A stretch of DNA of 64,000 bases, taken from Nocardiopsis alborubida (GTDB lineage Bacteria > Actinomycetota > Actinomycetes > Streptosporangiales > Streptosporangiaceae). The stretch spans positions 124,001-188,000 of the forward strand of contig NZ_JAAXPG010000006.1 in assembly GCF_012396365.1 (NCBI RefSeq). Direction: 5' to 3'. This document shows positions 32,678 through 37,159 of this stretch, piece by piece. The notes beneath the pieces are model-generated. The model worked only from the letters and a program-made list of their open reading frames with translations, made no database searches and had not been told where the DNA came from. The first letter of the stretch is position 1, and each line of letters opens with the position of its first letter. The position numbers were made by a program, and so were the translations under genes.

Positions 32678-34141
32678 TCAGACCCGCGACGGGACGTGGG
32701 CGTCGGCGCGGGTCGGACCCGAGAACACCGCCTCCAGGGCCAGCCCCAGCTCCTCGCCGACGGCCTCGGCGGGGGAGTCGGGCGCGGGGGCGAGCACGGG
32801 CCGCGCCGCCAGCAGGGCGCGGGCCAGCCGCTCCTGCCGGTCCAGGCGCGCCGCGGCGTCCGCCGTCGCCGCGCCCGTTAGTGAGGCGCCCGGTCGGGTG
32901 GGCGCCGGTGCCGGTGCCGGAACCGGTTCCAGGGCGGATCCGTCCGGCGCGGTGTAGCCCGTGCACCAGCGCAGCCTCCCGCCAGCCCGCGCGGGGGCGT
33001 CGGCGTGCGTGACCACCAGCGAGTCCACCCCGCCGGTGGCGGCGAGCGCGTACCGGTGCGCCACCGCGTCGAAGTGCCCGACCCGGAACGCCCCCTGCCA
33101 CGGGTGCGCGCCGTTGTGCGCCTCGGTCAGCACCGCGCCCAGTCCCGGGTCCTCGGCCACGAGCGGGCCCGCGCCGTGCCGGGTGGTGTAGGCGCGCACC
33201 ACACCGATACGGCGGGCGTCGCCGGGGCGTCCGGCCTCGGCCAGGAGCGCGAGCGGGTTCGCGGTGGTCGTCGTGGACCAGGTGGTGTACGGGTGGAACC
33301 CGTGCCACTCGTCCAGCAGCACCCCCTGCGCCCCCTCGAACACCACGGGGGAGCGGGCGAGCAGCCGGGGCAGGTGGTCCTCGTCCACCAACCGCACCCG
33401 CCGTGCGAAGGCCAGGTAGGCCTCGACGCACTCCTCGACGTCGGGGCAGGCCTCGGGCCGGGGCCCGACGCCGAGGCTCGTTTCCCCGGACCCTGCCGCC
33501 GTGTCCCCGAACCGGGTTCCCGCGCCCGTGGTGCCCGGCGCGGTCCGCGCCGCGCCCGGGGGCTCCAGGGCGCGGCGCACCGCGTGCAGGTGGTCGGCCA
33601 GGCGGCGCAGCTTGCGGCGCAGTACGTCCGGCCGCGCGCAGTCGCCGGCGGTCGGCGCGTCCTCGGGGCGGGCCAGGGCGTAGGCCACGGTCTCGCCCAC
33701 CCCCATCCCGCAGGAGCCGTGCCGGGCCTCGCCCCGCGCCCGCTCCCGCGTCTGGTTGGCCGCCCGGTGCCACGGCGTGCTGATCAGCGCACGGCGGTCC
33801 ACGGTGACCAGTGCGAACGGGTCGGGCACGCCGAGCGATGCCAGGTGCCCGGCCTCGGCGGCCAGGGCGAAGGGGTCCACCACCATCAGCCGCGACAGGT
33901 GCGTGGGCACCGGGCCGCCGGGGGCCAGCGTGCCCGAGCCGAACTGCGCGAACGTGTGGTGGCGGCCGTCGGGGGCCACCACGTTGTGCGCGGCCTGGGC
34001 GCCCCCGTTGGCGCGCACGACGGCGCCGAAGCGCCGCCGCGCGCACAGCAGGTCGACCGTCACGCCCTTGCCCGCGTCACCGAACCCCAGGTCGACGACG
34101 ACGGCGTTCCCGTCGGCCCACGGGGTGGTCGCGCCGGTCAC
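32678..34141 (-). CDS. divergent adenylosuccinate-synthetase (PurA) paralogue
   Basis: A 487-residue protein with a PurA fold. GDAGKG (21-26) replaces the canonical GDEGKGK P-loop but keeps the catalytic Asp, and His52 lies in the GGAQAAHNVV equivalent of GGxNAGHT. FEGAQGVLLDEWHGFHPYTTWSTTTTANP parallels the IMP-binding segment and FDAVAHRYA parallels the late GWxDAV phrase. It has a Gly/Thr-rich insertion around residues 195-235 and a Pro/Ala-rich stretch near 410-425. Loss of P-loop Glu and the changed TTAGG-like loop make classic IMP-Asp ligation doubtful. Its GTG overlaps the vWA stop (GTGA), so it is coupled to the NUDIX/J-domain/vWA cluster. Confidence 0.82.
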   Translation of the reverse strand: MTGATTPWADGNAVVVDLGFGDAGKGVTVDLLCARRRFGAVVRANGGAQAAHNVVAPDGRHHTFAQFGSGTLAPGGPVPTHLSRLMVVDPFALAAEAGHLASLGVPDPFALVTVDRRALISTPWHRAANQTRERARGEARHGSCGMGVGETVAYALARPEDAPTAGDCARPDVLRRKLRRLADHLHAVRRALEPPGAARTAPGTTGAGTRFGDTAAGSGETSLGVGPRPEACPDVEECVEAYLAFARRVRLVDEDHLPRLLARSPVVFEGAQGVLLDEWHGFHPYTTWSTTTTANPLALLAEAGRPGDARRIGVVRAYTTRHGAGPLVAEDPGLGAVLTEAHNGAHPWQGAFRVGHFDAVAHRYALAATGGVDSLVVTHADAPARAGGRLRWCTGYTAPDGSALEPVPAPAPAPTRPGASLTGAATADAAARLDRQERLARALLAARPVLAPAPDSPAEAVGEELGLALEAVFSGPTRADAHVPSRV

Positions 34142-35133
34142 AGCCGGTCCACCCCGCCCGCGTCGGCCGGGCCGCCGAGCCCGCCCGGGGCGTCGGCCAC
34201 GACCACGGAGCCGCGGCTCGCGGACAGCGTCCGCAGCGCCCTGCCCACCGCCTCGCCCGCGTCCGAGCCCGCCTCGGCCAGGTCGGCCAGACCCCTCTCC
34301 AGGTCGATGGCCTCCTCGGCGAGCCCGACGGTGACCGCGATGGTCTCCGACACCGCGTCGAGGTCGTCCAGGTAGATGACGTTCTGGCCCATGTGGGTGT
34401 CCCAGAAGCCGCGGACCTTGTCGTTGTGGAAGTGCCCGCTGCCGGTCGGCATGATGAAGTACACCTCGAAGCTGCGCCGCAGCTCGGCCAGGATCCGCGG
34501 GAACGGGATGTCCTCGGTGAGGTCGTCGCCGATCACCTCGCGCACCTCCCGCGCCTTGACCGCCCCGTAGGCCATCTCGTCGCCGATGACGAAGAGGTGG
34601 CCGCGCCGCCCGCGCTTCTCCAGGCAGTCCATGGAGGTGTGCCGGGCCATGAAGTACATGGCCAGCTCGTAGGACTCCGTCACCTGGCCGCCACCGCCGC
34701 CCTCCAGCAGGATGTTGCCCAGGTCGTCCTCCAGCTCGTTGCCGGACTCGAACTGGCCGACCTGGAGCGGGGCCCGGTCGCAGGTGGCGTCGCCGATCGC
34801 ACCGAAGAGGATCTGCGGGTCCTGCACGTAGCCCTTGCGCAGCAGCAGGCCGAACAGGTCGGGCAGCTTGGTCTGCAGCACGCGCGGCACGTTGCGCATG
34901 GACCCGGTGACGTCGAAGAGCACCGAGATGGCCAGCGACTCGGGGTGCTCGGCGGAGTCGCGGCTCTCGCGCACGCCCACCCCGTGGGGGTCGAGGCTGT
35001 CGTGGACCCGCCAGGAGCTGCGCGGGGTCGAGGCGAGCACGTCGTCGGTGTAGCCGAAGCTGCTGGAGCCGACGGAGGAGTTGTAGGCCTGACGCGCGTG
35101 GTAGGCGTCGGTGGACCAGTGGCTGCTTCCCAT
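34138..35133 (-). CDS. von Willebrand factor A domain protein
   Basis: A 331-residue vWA protein. The MIDAS motif is DVTGSM (D74, T76, S78), with later LFVIGDEMAYG and YFIMPTG giving the Rossmann core. The N-terminus is Ser/Tyr-rich (SSVGSSSFGYTDD) and no signal peptide or membrane span is present, so it is likely cytoplasmic. It is coupled by a 4-base overlap to the PurA-like gene and lies 71 bp after the J-domain/kinase-like gene. vWA proteins usually scaffold metal-dependent protein complexes; here the partners would be the neighbours. Confidence 0.87.
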   Translation of the reverse strand: MGSSHWSTDAYHARQAYNSSVGSSSFGYTDDVLASTPRSSWRVHDSLDPHGVGVRESRDSAEHPESLAISVLFDVTGSMRNVPRVLQTKLPDLFGLLLRKGYVQDPQILFGAIGDATCDRAPLQVGQFESGNELEDDLGNILLEGGGGGQVTESYELAMYFMARHTSMDCLEKRGRRGHLFVIGDEMAYGAVKAREVREVIGDDLTEDIPFPRILAELRRSFEVYFIMPTGSGHFHNDKVRGFWDTHMGQNVIYLDDLDAVSETIAVTVGLAEEAIDLERGLADLAEAGSDAGEAVGRALRTLSASRGSVVVADAPGGLGGPADAGGVDRL

Positions 35134-35204
35134 GGGGGTTCTCCTTGGAACGGGGTGGGCGGACCGGGCCGCCGGGGTCGGGGGCGGGGATCGGGGGGAC
35201 GGGG

Positions 35205-36299
35205 TCAGGCTTCGGCGGCCGGTGCCGGGTCCGGCATGGTGAAGGGGCGGAACCGGCGCGGCCCGTAGAGGCGCTCCAGCACCTCGTCGAGCTCGCCGAG
35301 CAGGGCGAACCCGTCTCGGGGCCGCCGCTCGGGAGCGGGCAGGGTGCAGCCGCGGGCGAAGGCCCGCAGCTGCCGGGGCAGGCGGCCCGCGGTCACGTAC
35401 TCCACGCACCGGGTCGCCATGTGGATGTCGGTCTGGGCCAGCGCGGGGCGGCGGGCGGCCACCTCGGGCGGGTAGAGGTCCTCGCGGCCGGGCACCATCG
35501 CCGGGACGTGCGGCGCGGTGCGCGGGGCGTGCGCCGTCACCGAGTAGCACCAGTCGACCAGGACCAGGCCGTGCTCGGCCGGGTGGACCATCACGTGTTC
35601 GGGCACGACCGCGCCGTGCACCACCCCCGCCCGCGCGGCGTTGCCGACGGCGACCAGCAGCCGCCGCCACATCCACGCCGCGTCGCGCGGGTCGACGCCG
35701 TCGGGATGGGCGCGGCGCACCTCGGCCAGGGTGTGGAAGCCGCGCAGCCGCCCCAGGATGTTGGCCCGCCGCTCCACGCCCGTGGCGGCGTCGCGGTGCT
35801 TGAAGGACTCCACCAGTTCGGGGACGAAGGCCCGGTAGCGCTCGTGGCCGTGCTCCCGGACGCGGCGCAGCGCGGTCGCCTCGGCCTCCAGCAGGTCGTT
35901 GTCGCGCGGGGCGCGGGGCAGCTTGAGCACCGCGTCGCGCCACTCCGGGGCCCGGTAGCGCACCGGGTACAGGTCGGCCACGTCGCCCCGGGCCAACCGT
36001 TCCCGGCCGACCCGGTAGGCGTGCGCGCCGGTGGCCAGGGTGAGGTCGTCCACGCGCAGGTCGCCCGCGGCCATCGCCCGGTACAGGTCCCACAGCTCGG
36101 AGAGCCTGGCGAAGGGAACGGTGCCGCTTCCGGGCGGCGCCGTGTCGGGGTGCAGCGCGCGGGCGAGCCCGCGGTGGCGGGCCGTGGCGGCCGGGGGCAC
36201 GCCGCCGCCCTCGGGCAGCGGGCCGAACAGCTCCACGGGGTCGCCGGCCAGGGCGACCTGGCGCTCGGCGTCCTCGAAGGCGGGACCGGTGGCCGTCAT
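35205..36299 (-). CDS. J-domain-like / protein-kinase-like fusion protein
   Basis: A 364-residue protein. The N-terminus contains HRGLARALHPDTAP (HPD at 50-52) and FARLSELWDLYRAM, fitting helices II-III of a J-domain. A kinase-like fold follows: VLKLPRAPRDNDLLEAEATAL with Lys126 as the beta-3 Lys, then HGAVVPEHVMV (228-238) in place of the HxDxxxxN loop, and VLVDWCYS (D249) in place of DFG. The catalytic Asp is Ala230, so it is likely a pseudokinase or has altered chemistry. It is 17 bp downstream of the NUDIX gene. Recruitment of an Hsp70-type chaperone or of a client protein is conceivable but unproven. Confidence 0.72.
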   Translation of the reverse strand: MTATGPAFEDAERQVALAGDPVELFGPLPEGGGVPPAATARHRGLARALHPDTAPPGSGTVPFARLSELWDLYRAMAAGDLRVDDLTLATGAHAYRVGRERLARGDVADLYPVRYRAPEWRDAVLKLPRAPRDNDLLEAEATALRRVREHGHERYRAFVPELVESFKHRDAATGVERRANILGRLRGFHTLAEVRRAHPDGVDPRDAAWMWRRLLVAVGNAARAGVVHGAVVPEHVMVHPAEHGLVLVDWCYSVTAHAPRTAPHVPAMVPGREDLYPPEVAARRPALAQTDIHMATRCVEYVTAGRLPRQLRAFARGCTLPAPERRPRDGFALLGELDEVLERLYGPRRFRPFTMPDPAPAAEA

Positions 36300-36316
36300 C
36301 GGACTCCTCTCGGGGG

Positions 36317-37108
36317 TCACTGCGTGCTCCGCAGCAGGGGAGGGTGCAGCAGGGCGGCGCCGCCCGCCCGGTAGAGCCGGGCCCGCCGCCCGCCGCCCGC
36401 GCCGCCGCGTTCGGCGAGTTCCCCGGTGTCCTCCACGAACCCGGGGGCGGCGAGGATCTTGCGGTGGAAGTTGGCCGCGTGCAGGGACTGGCCCCACACG
36501 GCCTCGTACACCTCGCGCAGCGCCGTGATGGTGAAGGCGGGCGGCAGGAAGGCCGTGGCCAGCGGGGTGTACTCCAGCTTGGAGCGGGCGCGCTCGACGG
36601 CGTCGGCCAGGACGCGGCCGTGGTCGAAGGCCAGGTCGAGCCCGGCGCGGGCGCCGTCGCCGTGGCCGAGGTCGCGCCAGGGGACCCAGGCGGCCTCCTC
36701 GGTGTCCCGGCCGGTGTGCGGGTCGGGCAGGTCGGGGGCCAGCAGGACGTAGGCGACCGAGAAGACGCGCATGCGCGGGTCCCGGTCCCGGGCGCCGTAG
36801 GTGCCGAGCTGCTCCAGGTGCAGCTCGGTGGGCAGCAGGGTCTTCTCCGAGAGCACGCGCAGGGCGGCGTCGGGCAGGTCGGGGTCGGCGGGGCCGTCCG
36901 GTCCGTCCTGGGCCCGGACGAACCCGCCCGGCAGCGCCCACCAGCCGCGCTGGGGGTGGGCGGCGCGCCGCGTCAGCAGCACGTGCGGCGCGCCCGACCG
37001 GATGGTGAGGGCGACGACGTCGACGGTGACCGCGGCCGGGGCGAACGCGTGCGGGTCGTAGTCGGCGAGGAACCGGCTCTCGCCGTCCTCGCGCCGCGGA
37101 TCGGCCAC
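36317..37108 (-). CDS. NUDIX-domain transcriptional regulator, NrtR-like
   Basis: A 263-residue protein. An N-terminal NUDIX fold (PHVLLTRRAAHPQRGWWALPGGFV, residues ~40-64) has a degraded NUDIX box: AALRVLSEKTLL lacks the REUxEE pattern. A C-terminal winged helix (LPPAFTITALREVYEAVWGQSLHAANFHRKILAAPGF, ~170-210) is the hallmark of NrtR/ADP-ribose-responsive regulators. NrtR proteins sense ADP-ribose or NAD-derived nucleotides and repress NAD genes. This one is first in the four-gene cluster, right behind a long inverted repeat that is a likely autoregulatory operator. The effector is unknown. Confidence 0.85.
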   Translation of the reverse strand: MADPRREDGESRFLADYDPHAFAPAAVTVDVVALTIRSGAPHVLLTRRAAHPQRGWWALPGGFVRAQDGPDGPADPDLPDAALRVLSEKTLLPTELHLEQLGTYGARDRDPRMRVFSVAYVLLAPDLPDPHTGRDTEEAAWVPWRDLGHGDGARAGLDLAFDHGRVLADAVERARSKLEYTPLATAFLPPAFTITALREVYEAVWGQSLHAANFHRKILAAPGFVEDTGELAERGGAGGGRRARLYRAGGAALLHPPLLRSTQ

Positions 37109-37118
37109 GTGCGCCTCC

Positions 37119-37159
37119 AGTTGTTCTCAGTAAGAGTATTTCTCGAACTGAGAGCAACT
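37119..37159. promoter_or_regulatory. long inverted repeat, likely operator of the NUDIX regulator cluster
   Basis: Arms AGTTGTTCTCAGT (37119-37131) and ACTGAGAGCAACT (37147-37159) are complementary except for one base, across a 15-base spacer that itself contains AAGAG and TTCTC half-sites. The block is strikingly AT-rich. It starts 10 bp upstream of the NUDIX start codon, where it would cover the promoter or early leader. Confidence 0.75.

Follow-up and report, generated by a model that had tools for sequence, protein, structure and literature searches.

A compact module of a J-like pseudokinase, a von Willebrand A protein and a PurA-like protein is common to large phages, bacterial plasmids and actinobacterial chromosomes

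We analysed a stretch of 64,000 nucleotides from Nocardiopsis alborubida (contig NZ_JAAXPG010000006.1, positions 124,001 to 188,000; hereafter the window), in which four genes of the minus strand that span positions 32678-37108 encode a NUDIX protein with an NrtR-type winged helix (NUD), a J-like domain that is fused to a pseudokinase (JK), a von Willebrand A (vWA) protein (VWA) and a paralogue from the PurA superfamily (PURL). A comparison of phages, plasmids and chromosomes showed that JK, VWA and PURL form a compact module that is common to large phages, bacterial plasmids and actinobacterial chromosomes, and that the bacterial modules usually carry an added NrtR-like NUDIX regulator, with a conserved operator at its promoter in the family of the window. 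Based on its residues and its phylogenetic placement, PURL is a third branch of the PurA superfamily, neither PurA nor PurZ. Our literature search, which was restricted to open-licence articles in PMC, found no published account of the NUD, JK, VWA and PURL combination.

Distribution of the module in phages and plasmids

IMG/VR was scanned with PURL and with VWA, and the best 80 of 226 and the best 80 of 167 viral loci, respectively, were analysed, a gene being counted as present if it was matched within the retrieved locus, which extended by at most 8 kb to either side. VWA was found in 77/80 and JK in 57/80 of the PURL-led loci; PURL was found in 77/80 and JK in 61/80 of the VWA-led ones. 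The removal of duplicates by identical protein stretches reduced the 160 loci to 112, in which JK, VWA and PURL (67 loci), VWA and PURL (32) and all four genes (9) were the prevailing combinations, the remainder being PURL alone (2), JK with PURL (1) and JK with VWA (1). JK, VWA and PURL were therefore together in 76 and VWA and PURL in 108 of the 112 distinct loci. Two of the nine four-gene loci, L195 and L277, match NUD weakly (56 and 58 bits) via a different Nudix protein, so that an NrtR-like regulator is present in seven of the nine. Clustering of the neighbouring genes, in which divergent families may be split, gave 11 of the 112 loci as the highest count for any other family; because no further recurrent family stands beside the module, its core is JK-VWA-PURL and NUD is an add-on.

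Among the annotated phages, the PURL query matched 216 records, 189 of Mycobacterium, 10 of Rhizobium and 6 of Vibrio phages among them, and the VWA protein of mycobacteriophage I3 matched 208, again with 189, 10 and 6 from these three; the two lists were compared by counts. In phage I3, gp270 corresponds to JK (277 bits), gp271 to VWA (296 bits) and gp273 to PURL (415 bits), and an open reading frame of 112 amino acids (L114:11645-11983; PHROG 3263, unknown function) lies between VWA and PURL. A serine/threonine kinase and a PurA-like gene are described in the text of PMC9476963 as phams that are unique to subcluster C1 and conserved in all of its members. VWA adjoins PURL in Rhizobium phage RHph_TM61 and Vibrio phage Va1, and no JK match was found in the stretches that were read. 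VWA also matched 21 plasmid records, of which 7 were read together with their surroundings. The order was JK-VWA-PURL-NUD on the Rhodococcus and Tsukamurella plasmids, while on those of Agrobacterium vitis, Rhizobium leguminosarum and Acetobacter a divergent NUD is followed by JK-VWA-PURL. The Variovorax plasmid has JK-VWA-PURL, NUD not being found on it. A Rhodovulum plasmid (L122:5990-8918) holds NUD, JK and VWA near an IS3 transposase and gave no PURL match; its VWA frame is annotated as a TonB-dependent receptor, and the plasmid set as a whole looks like a decayed copy.

Several viral loci show additional neighbours; one or two proteins of each neighbour cluster were examined with Pfam. 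In the L237-L266 group, a cluster that follows PURL in 11 loci has an R2K ATP-grasp protein as its tested member, and the tested member of a cluster that lies upstream in eight loci is HAD_SAK_2. The order in L129, L133, L142 and L145 is NrtR-NAMPT-VWA-PURL-JK, with JK behind PURL. A NADAR-domain gene (ADP-ribose processing family) follows the module at L148:12193-12702, and its cluster was found in five viral loci.

Conservation of the four genes in actinobacteria

A lack of joint conservation of the four genes elsewhere had been named in the initial annotation as one of two grounds for giving up its reading. We examined the best 80 of 205 actinobacterial loci, in which the four proteins were placed by tblastn; the gene order was taken from these placements instead of from the clustering of the flanking families, where a crude gene caller had merged JK and VWA. 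The NUD-JK-VWA-PURL order was complete in 75 of the 80 loci, and the genes also stay together on plasmids as described above. The other five loci are cut at contig ends (L031, L050 and L066) or lack a JK match (L100 and L108). With the start codons picked by script, a four-base overlap was found for NUD/JK in 46/75 loci and for VWA/PURL in 38/70, and the genes that flank the operon vary from genus to genus. The four-gene set is a real unit. The closest named loci are mostly from Nocardiopsis; a record labelled Glycomyces fuscus (L052), whose VWA is 97% identical to that of the window and whose flank families are of the Nocardiopsis type, is probably a mislabelled Nocardiopsis.

VWA was matched in 26 of 36 congeners (in one as a fragment only and in one with a stop) and in none of the 23 genomes of other genera within the same sample. 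All ten of the VWA-less congeners have a PurA match at the canonical level only (G027 in two pieces, G032 partial), and the three VWA carriers that were tested have both PURL and canonical PurA matches, one of the PURL matches with an internal stop. Among these tested congeners VWA and PURL, the two genes that were searched for, are all-or-none. In six of the ten VWA-less congeners, ruvC and the second flanking gene were matched within 80-303 bp of each other, which leaves no room for the operon; in the window they are separated by 4.8 kb. A VWA profile search across the phylum matched 2 of 396 genomes, that of the window among them, and the operon is therefore patchy. The dN/dS ratios were 0.12-0.48 over 12 comparisons of the four genes, all of which look to be under purifying selection.

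PURL as a third branch of the PurA superfamily

The other ground named beforehand was that the PurA-like protein would perform ordinary adenylosuccinate synthesis and be the only purA of the genome. A separate full-length canonical purA (612 bits) was found on a different contig, and PURL is therefore a paralogue. PURL belongs to Pfam PF00709 (Adenylsucc_synt) with 183 bits against a cut-off of 27, but it falls below the PurA equivalogs TIGR00184 (101 against 395.55 bits) and NF002223 (135 against 402) as well as below the PurZ NCBIfam model NF038379 (33.9 against 300 bits). In a tree that included 30 viral PURL drawn at random, five PurZ and 19 of the 23 fetched PurA loci (those used had a GDEGKGK-like motif in a single frame, which the other four lacked), the three formed separate clades with a support of 0.815 for PURL, which is moderate, 1.0 for PurZ and 0.94 for PurA. 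Bacterial PURL are scattered at several places among the phage PURL in the tree, a pattern that fits phage-host transfer.

The residues were tabulated in E. coli PurA numbering for 120 PURL members, 107 of which are viral. Asp13 is kept in 119 (one gap), Lys16 in 119, Gly416 in 115, and His41, Gln224 and Asp333 in all 120. Val273 is replaced by His in 120, Asn38 by Gln in 119 and Thr301 by Gln in 116, Arg303 is gapped in 120, and position 129 is Cys in 92, Val in 24 and Thr in 4. The PURL of the window has all five of N38, T129, V273, T301 and R303 altered, which are kept in 19/19 PurA. Since Asn38, Thr129 and Val273 are identical in 19/19 PurA and 5/5 PurZ, PURL deviates where those two agree. 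The P-loop of the window PURL indeed has the sequence GDAGKG, and both the catalytic Asp and the catalytic His are retained, as had been reported; as a signature of the family this change does not hold, because Glu14 is retained in 86/120 members and the near-invariant substitutions fall at other positions.

According to the text of PMC8342488, the base pocket in the PurZ structure is lined by Ser, Asn, Thr, Gln and Val. The alpha-phosphate is paired with an Arg that the partner subunit contributes, the aspartate is touched by a loop with Thr at its tip, and Arg303 of PurA contacts both IMP and aspartate, according to the same article. The position-to-position mapping of these contacts onto PURL was made in this analysis. 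For His41, Gln224 and Asp333 we assume the roles that they have in PurA, where Asp333 and Gly416 presumably bind guanine. PURL thus has the look of a ligase in which catalysis is intact and the pockets for both substrates have been rebuilt, and this combination of a PurA fold, intact catalytic residues and changed pockets fits the earlier proposal that a purine-derived ligand is made or consumed.

The synthesis of Z-DNA by PURL in the manner of PurZ was rejected in view of Asp13 in 119/120 members, the NF038379 score and the separate clade. Among the 481 phage PF00709 homologues counted in section 24 of PMC12884076, a study from 2026, 147 are PurZ, every one of which has Ser13; that section gives no description of the others. 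PHROG 1211, '2-aminooxy adenylosuccinate synthetase', matches the window PURL as well. Its name is given in records to both PurZ (Ser13) and PURL (Asp13), and PURL phages may thus be mistaken for Z-genome candidates.

The pseudokinase and the von Willebrand A protein

As first described, JK has an HPD motif at residues 50-52 in its J-like domain and Ala230 at the position of the catalytic Asp. Its AlphaFold model (mean pLDDT 93) shows a kinase fold, with PknB 1mru as the best Foldseek match (TMt 0.71), and helices 36-49 and 60-77 lie on either side of HPD. The motif was found in 26/26 of the aligned actinobacterial members and in 77/97 of the family, whose catalytic-Asp position is A, G or S in 89/97 and Asp in 3/97. 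Judged by these residues, JK is a pseudokinase across the whole family and mostly HPD-bearing; its candidacy as an active Ser/Thr kinase was rejected, as the HRD Asp is Ala in the window and Asp in only those three members. JK matches PHROG 3043 'kinase' (4.8e-43). The Pfam scan gave no match above the cut-off for JK or VWA. Pfam DnaJ did not match the window JK; it matched 21 of 26 relatives at E<=1 (best 2.6e-4) and reached at best 25.7 against a cut-off of 27.8 among six divergent members. In the L237-L266 viral sub-branch JK is short and strongly diverged, and its kinase motifs are mostly gone.

VWA has the fold of a vWA domain and retains its MIDAS motif, DVTGS, at residues 74-78. Together with the HPD-bearing J-like domain, this supports the chaperone-like partners that had been proposed. 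No HSP70 match was found in any of the 23 carrier phage records, and a J-protein would accordingly rely on the DnaK of the host.

The regulator and its operator

NUD matches the Pfam families NrtR_WHD (53.9 bits) and NUDIX (47.9 bits), both over the cut-off, and profile matches of its family include 3gz5, a MutT/nudix family protein (144.6 bits) that we take to be Shewanella NrtR, and AraR 5bs6 (131.6 bits). It remains below the NrtR equivalog NF050029 (126.3 bits against a cut-off of 400). The view that the winged helix is kept and the NUDIX box broken was confirmed in its first half; the second applies to the Nocardiopsis-type members, in which the RE..EE core is lost, while the core is present in 58/77 homologues and the full NUDIX box is matched in 20/77.

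The inverted repeat that had been noted at 37119-37159, upstream of NUD, is real and part of tandem CTC-N5/6-GAG units. The operator pattern is matched in the window without mismatch, 0.06 matches being expected by chance at <=3 mismatches, and the tandem was found in 69 of 77 orthologous upstream regions compared with a mean of 0.02/77 in shuffles that preserved base composition, not dinucleotides. The genome scan found no site at <=2 mismatches except at the NUD promoter; four further matches all have three mismatches, and a reversed-pattern control gives the same number. A loose -35/-10 pattern, counted without a control set, lies directly 5' of the units in 39/77 regions, that of the window not included. 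Because the operator is confined to its own promoter, NUD is predicted to be a local autorepressor, and a role as a genome-wide NAD regulator was rejected. The conserved operator at the promoter of NUD itself also lends support to the NUDIX sensor of the initial annotation. NrtR of M. smegmatis is described in the text of PMC6800001 as an autorepressor that is released by ADP-ribose and has no detectable Nudix hydrolysis.

Layout of the operon in the window

The open reading frames agree with those first described, NUD and JK being separated by 17 bp and JK and VWA by 71 bp, and VWA and PURL overlapping by four bases (Table 1). A known defence system was considered and rejected: PADLOC gave weak matches for JK (best E 2e-5), an E of 0.047 for NUD and none for VWA and PURL.

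Table 1. Positions of the four genes and the predicted operator in the window
Feature	Position	Strand	Description
NUD	36317-37108	-	GTG start, 263 aa; NUDIX and NrtR-type winged helix
JK	35205-36299	-	ATG start, 364 aa; J-like domain fused to pseudokinase
VWA	34138-35133	-	ATG start, 331 aa; von Willebrand A domain, MIDAS DVTGS
PURL	32678-34141	-	GTG start, 487 aa; PurA-superfamily paralogue, Adenylsucc_synt
Predicted operator	37125-37153	.	Two CTC-N5/6-GAG units directly upstream of NUD

Possible function of the module

The explanation that we favour, tentatively and with a little less than even confidence, is that PURL uses GTP to drive a purine ligation that is not adenylosuccinate synthesis, that vWA and JK with the host DnaK present its partner and that an NrtR-type sensor represses the operon in bacteria. 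PURL would be a working GTP-dependent ligase of the PurA fold, which may phosphorylate a lactam (6-oxo) oxygen, most likely that of a purine, via Asp13, His41 and Gln224 and then join an amine. As the IMP and aspartate contacts are replaced, neither of its partners would be bound as IMP and aspartate are. VWA, through metal-dependent peptide binding, could hold or hand over a modified or substrate-carrying protein together with JK, a putative non-catalytic kinase fold whose HPD J-motif would recruit the host DnaK. By analogy with NrtR, the bacterial operon would remain repressed as long as NUD occupies the operator, and NUD would be released by an ADP-ribose-like nucleoside-diphosphate compound, a possible sign of NAD+ breakdown, e.g., in infection or stress. 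Since the phage cores are mostly without the regulator, the most economical role would be chemistry in phage-host conflict or nucleotide stress. The observations comprise the gene layout, its conservation and the residue pattern; from them we infer the ligation of partners other than IMP and aspartate, the presenting role of vWA and JK/DnaK and the ADP-ribose-like induction. It is also conceivable, albeit rather unlikely, that PURL conjugates a purine nucleotide or an ADP-ribose-type nucleoside-diphosphate-X to an amine of a protein or RNA as a weapon or counter-measure between phage and host, with vWA and the J-pseudokinase/DnaK as presenters and an ADP-ribose-sensing repressor in bacteria. 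The reading of the set as a nucleotide-sensing system that switches a chaperone-like complex, which was given in the initial annotation, is partly supported as a whole.

Several observations weigh against the favoured GTP-driven ligation and its regulation. In 32 of the 112 viral loci VWA and PURL are present without JK, and copies that look damaged occur among the congeners (VWA with one stop in G003, a VWA fragment in G009 and a PURL match with one stop in G005). The operator is present at this operon only, so that control of NAD genes by NUD is not visible, and the ligand of NUD is assigned solely by analogy with NrtR. The column of R143, which in PurA contacts the phosphate from the partner subunit, is poorly aligned, with Arg in 5/120 members and Arg or Glu in the window PURL depending on the alignment, the GSCG pattern, one of the two used in the viral PURL scan, biases the Cys129 count, and the roles of several PurA residues are assumed. 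An NrtR-like regulator with NAMPT stands beside the module in only 7/112 viral loci, and the scans with these two genes, considered below, added no further loci with the module.

A competing explanation, possible although we would not expect it to hold, is that PURL is a small-molecule enzyme only, which produces a modified purine nucleotide (a signal, a DNA/RNA precursor or an antimetabolite), VWA and JK being regulators or assembly factors. It would agree with the retention of Asp333 and Gly416, which bind guanine in PurA, and with the precedent of PurZ, a relative of PurA. PurZ does likewise for phage 2-aminoadenine DNA, as described in the text of PMC12884076. However, only VWA and JK recur as neighbours, not a nucleotide kinase, lyase or polymerase family, and Thr129 is replaced by Cys or Val in 116/120 members. 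Far less can be said for PURL as an ordinary second adenylosuccinate synthetase with accessory genes, which we regard as very improbable: its membership in PF00709 and the phage annotations, which read adenylosuccinate synthetase, are outweighed by the canonical purA elsewhere in the genome, the TIGR00184 score and the replacement of the IMP and aspartate contacts, on which grounds an ordinary purA duplicate was rejected.

NAD+ is plausible as a signal for the module. That the module itself serves NAD+ repair, as an accessory to phage NAD+ reconstitution or a bacterial response to NAD+ loss that acts on ADP-ribose or an NAD-like dinucleotide, is distinctly improbable. Such a role would be consistent with the NrtR-type regulator of the bacterial operons, with the NrtR-like regulator, NAMPT and the module standing together in 7/112 viral loci, with the NAMPT family in 11/112, and with cytidylyltransferase-like and NADAR genes near some viral modules. 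However, in viral scans with module-linked NrtR and NAMPT genes (for NAMPT, the best 80 of at least 597), the module was found in 8/19 and 3/80 loci, each of them either a locus that had supplied the query or a near-identical contig. These counts are circular because the queries were themselves linked to the module, and further loci with the module numbered 0/11 and 0/77. A NAPRTase-family match is missing in 15 of the 19 carrier phages that were not chosen for NAMPT (four have one). NAMPT was absent from all 18 control loci, which are too few for a baseline, as the RtcB and anaerobic-RNR viral scans yielded just 12 and 7 loci.

VWA and PURL are carried by about 200 sequenced phages of Mycobacterium, Rhizobium and Vibrio and by 108 distinct loci of IMG/VR, and the proteins are now filed as 'PurA-like adenylosuccinate synthetase', 'kinase' or 'hypothetical'. 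The residue pattern suggests that PURL is active on a different substrate and that the protein filed as a kinase does not act as one, and a module that is shared by phages and their hosts points to undescribed chemistry. If this is true, the PurA fold has a third chemistry, which is coupled to chaperones and is used by phage and host alike in infection. With phage I3 and its host M. smegmatis, a cultivated pair is available in which the module can be tested directly.

Comparison with known systems

PurA belongs to the same superfamily as PURL and shares its P-loop Asp13/Lys16, His41, Gln224 and Asp333; the two differ in that the IMP and aspartate contacts are replaced in PURL and that its clade is separate. 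PurZ of the Z-genome cluster is, like PURL, a phage enzyme of the PurA superfamily with altered substrate contacts and a gap at the R303 position. The five PurZ that were used have Ser13 and keep N38, T129 and V273, whereas PURL has Asp13, Gln38, Cys or Val129 and His273, and purZ of phage S-2L adjoins mazZ and datZ, whereas PURL adjoins vWA and the J-pseudokinase. NUD resembles the NrtR regulators in combining NUDIX with a winged helix and in a palindromic operator at its own promoter, which for NUD is predicted from sequence, but in this genome its operator is at the private operon only and not at NAD genes.

Among the multi-gene systems, the MoxR-vWA ternary systems of PMC7159879 likewise have a vWA partner in actinobacteria. 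A search that covered the four genes of the operon found no MoxR AAA+ ATPase, and there is no VMAP/iSTAND protein among them; adenylosuccinate and PurA have no mention in the main text of that article. The Nudix-TF/ARG systems, as they are presented in the text of PMC9503650, share with the operon a Nudix sensor-repressor and a vWA chaperone and were proposed for phage-host conflict, the Nudix-regulated ADP-ribosylglycohydrolase (ARG)/vWA system being thought to counter viral ADP-ribosylation. They have ADP-ribosylglycohydrolase at their centre and often phosphatases, whereas the operon has neither but a PurA-like ligase and a J-pseudokinase. This system, built around a different enzyme, is the nearest published idea to the module described here.

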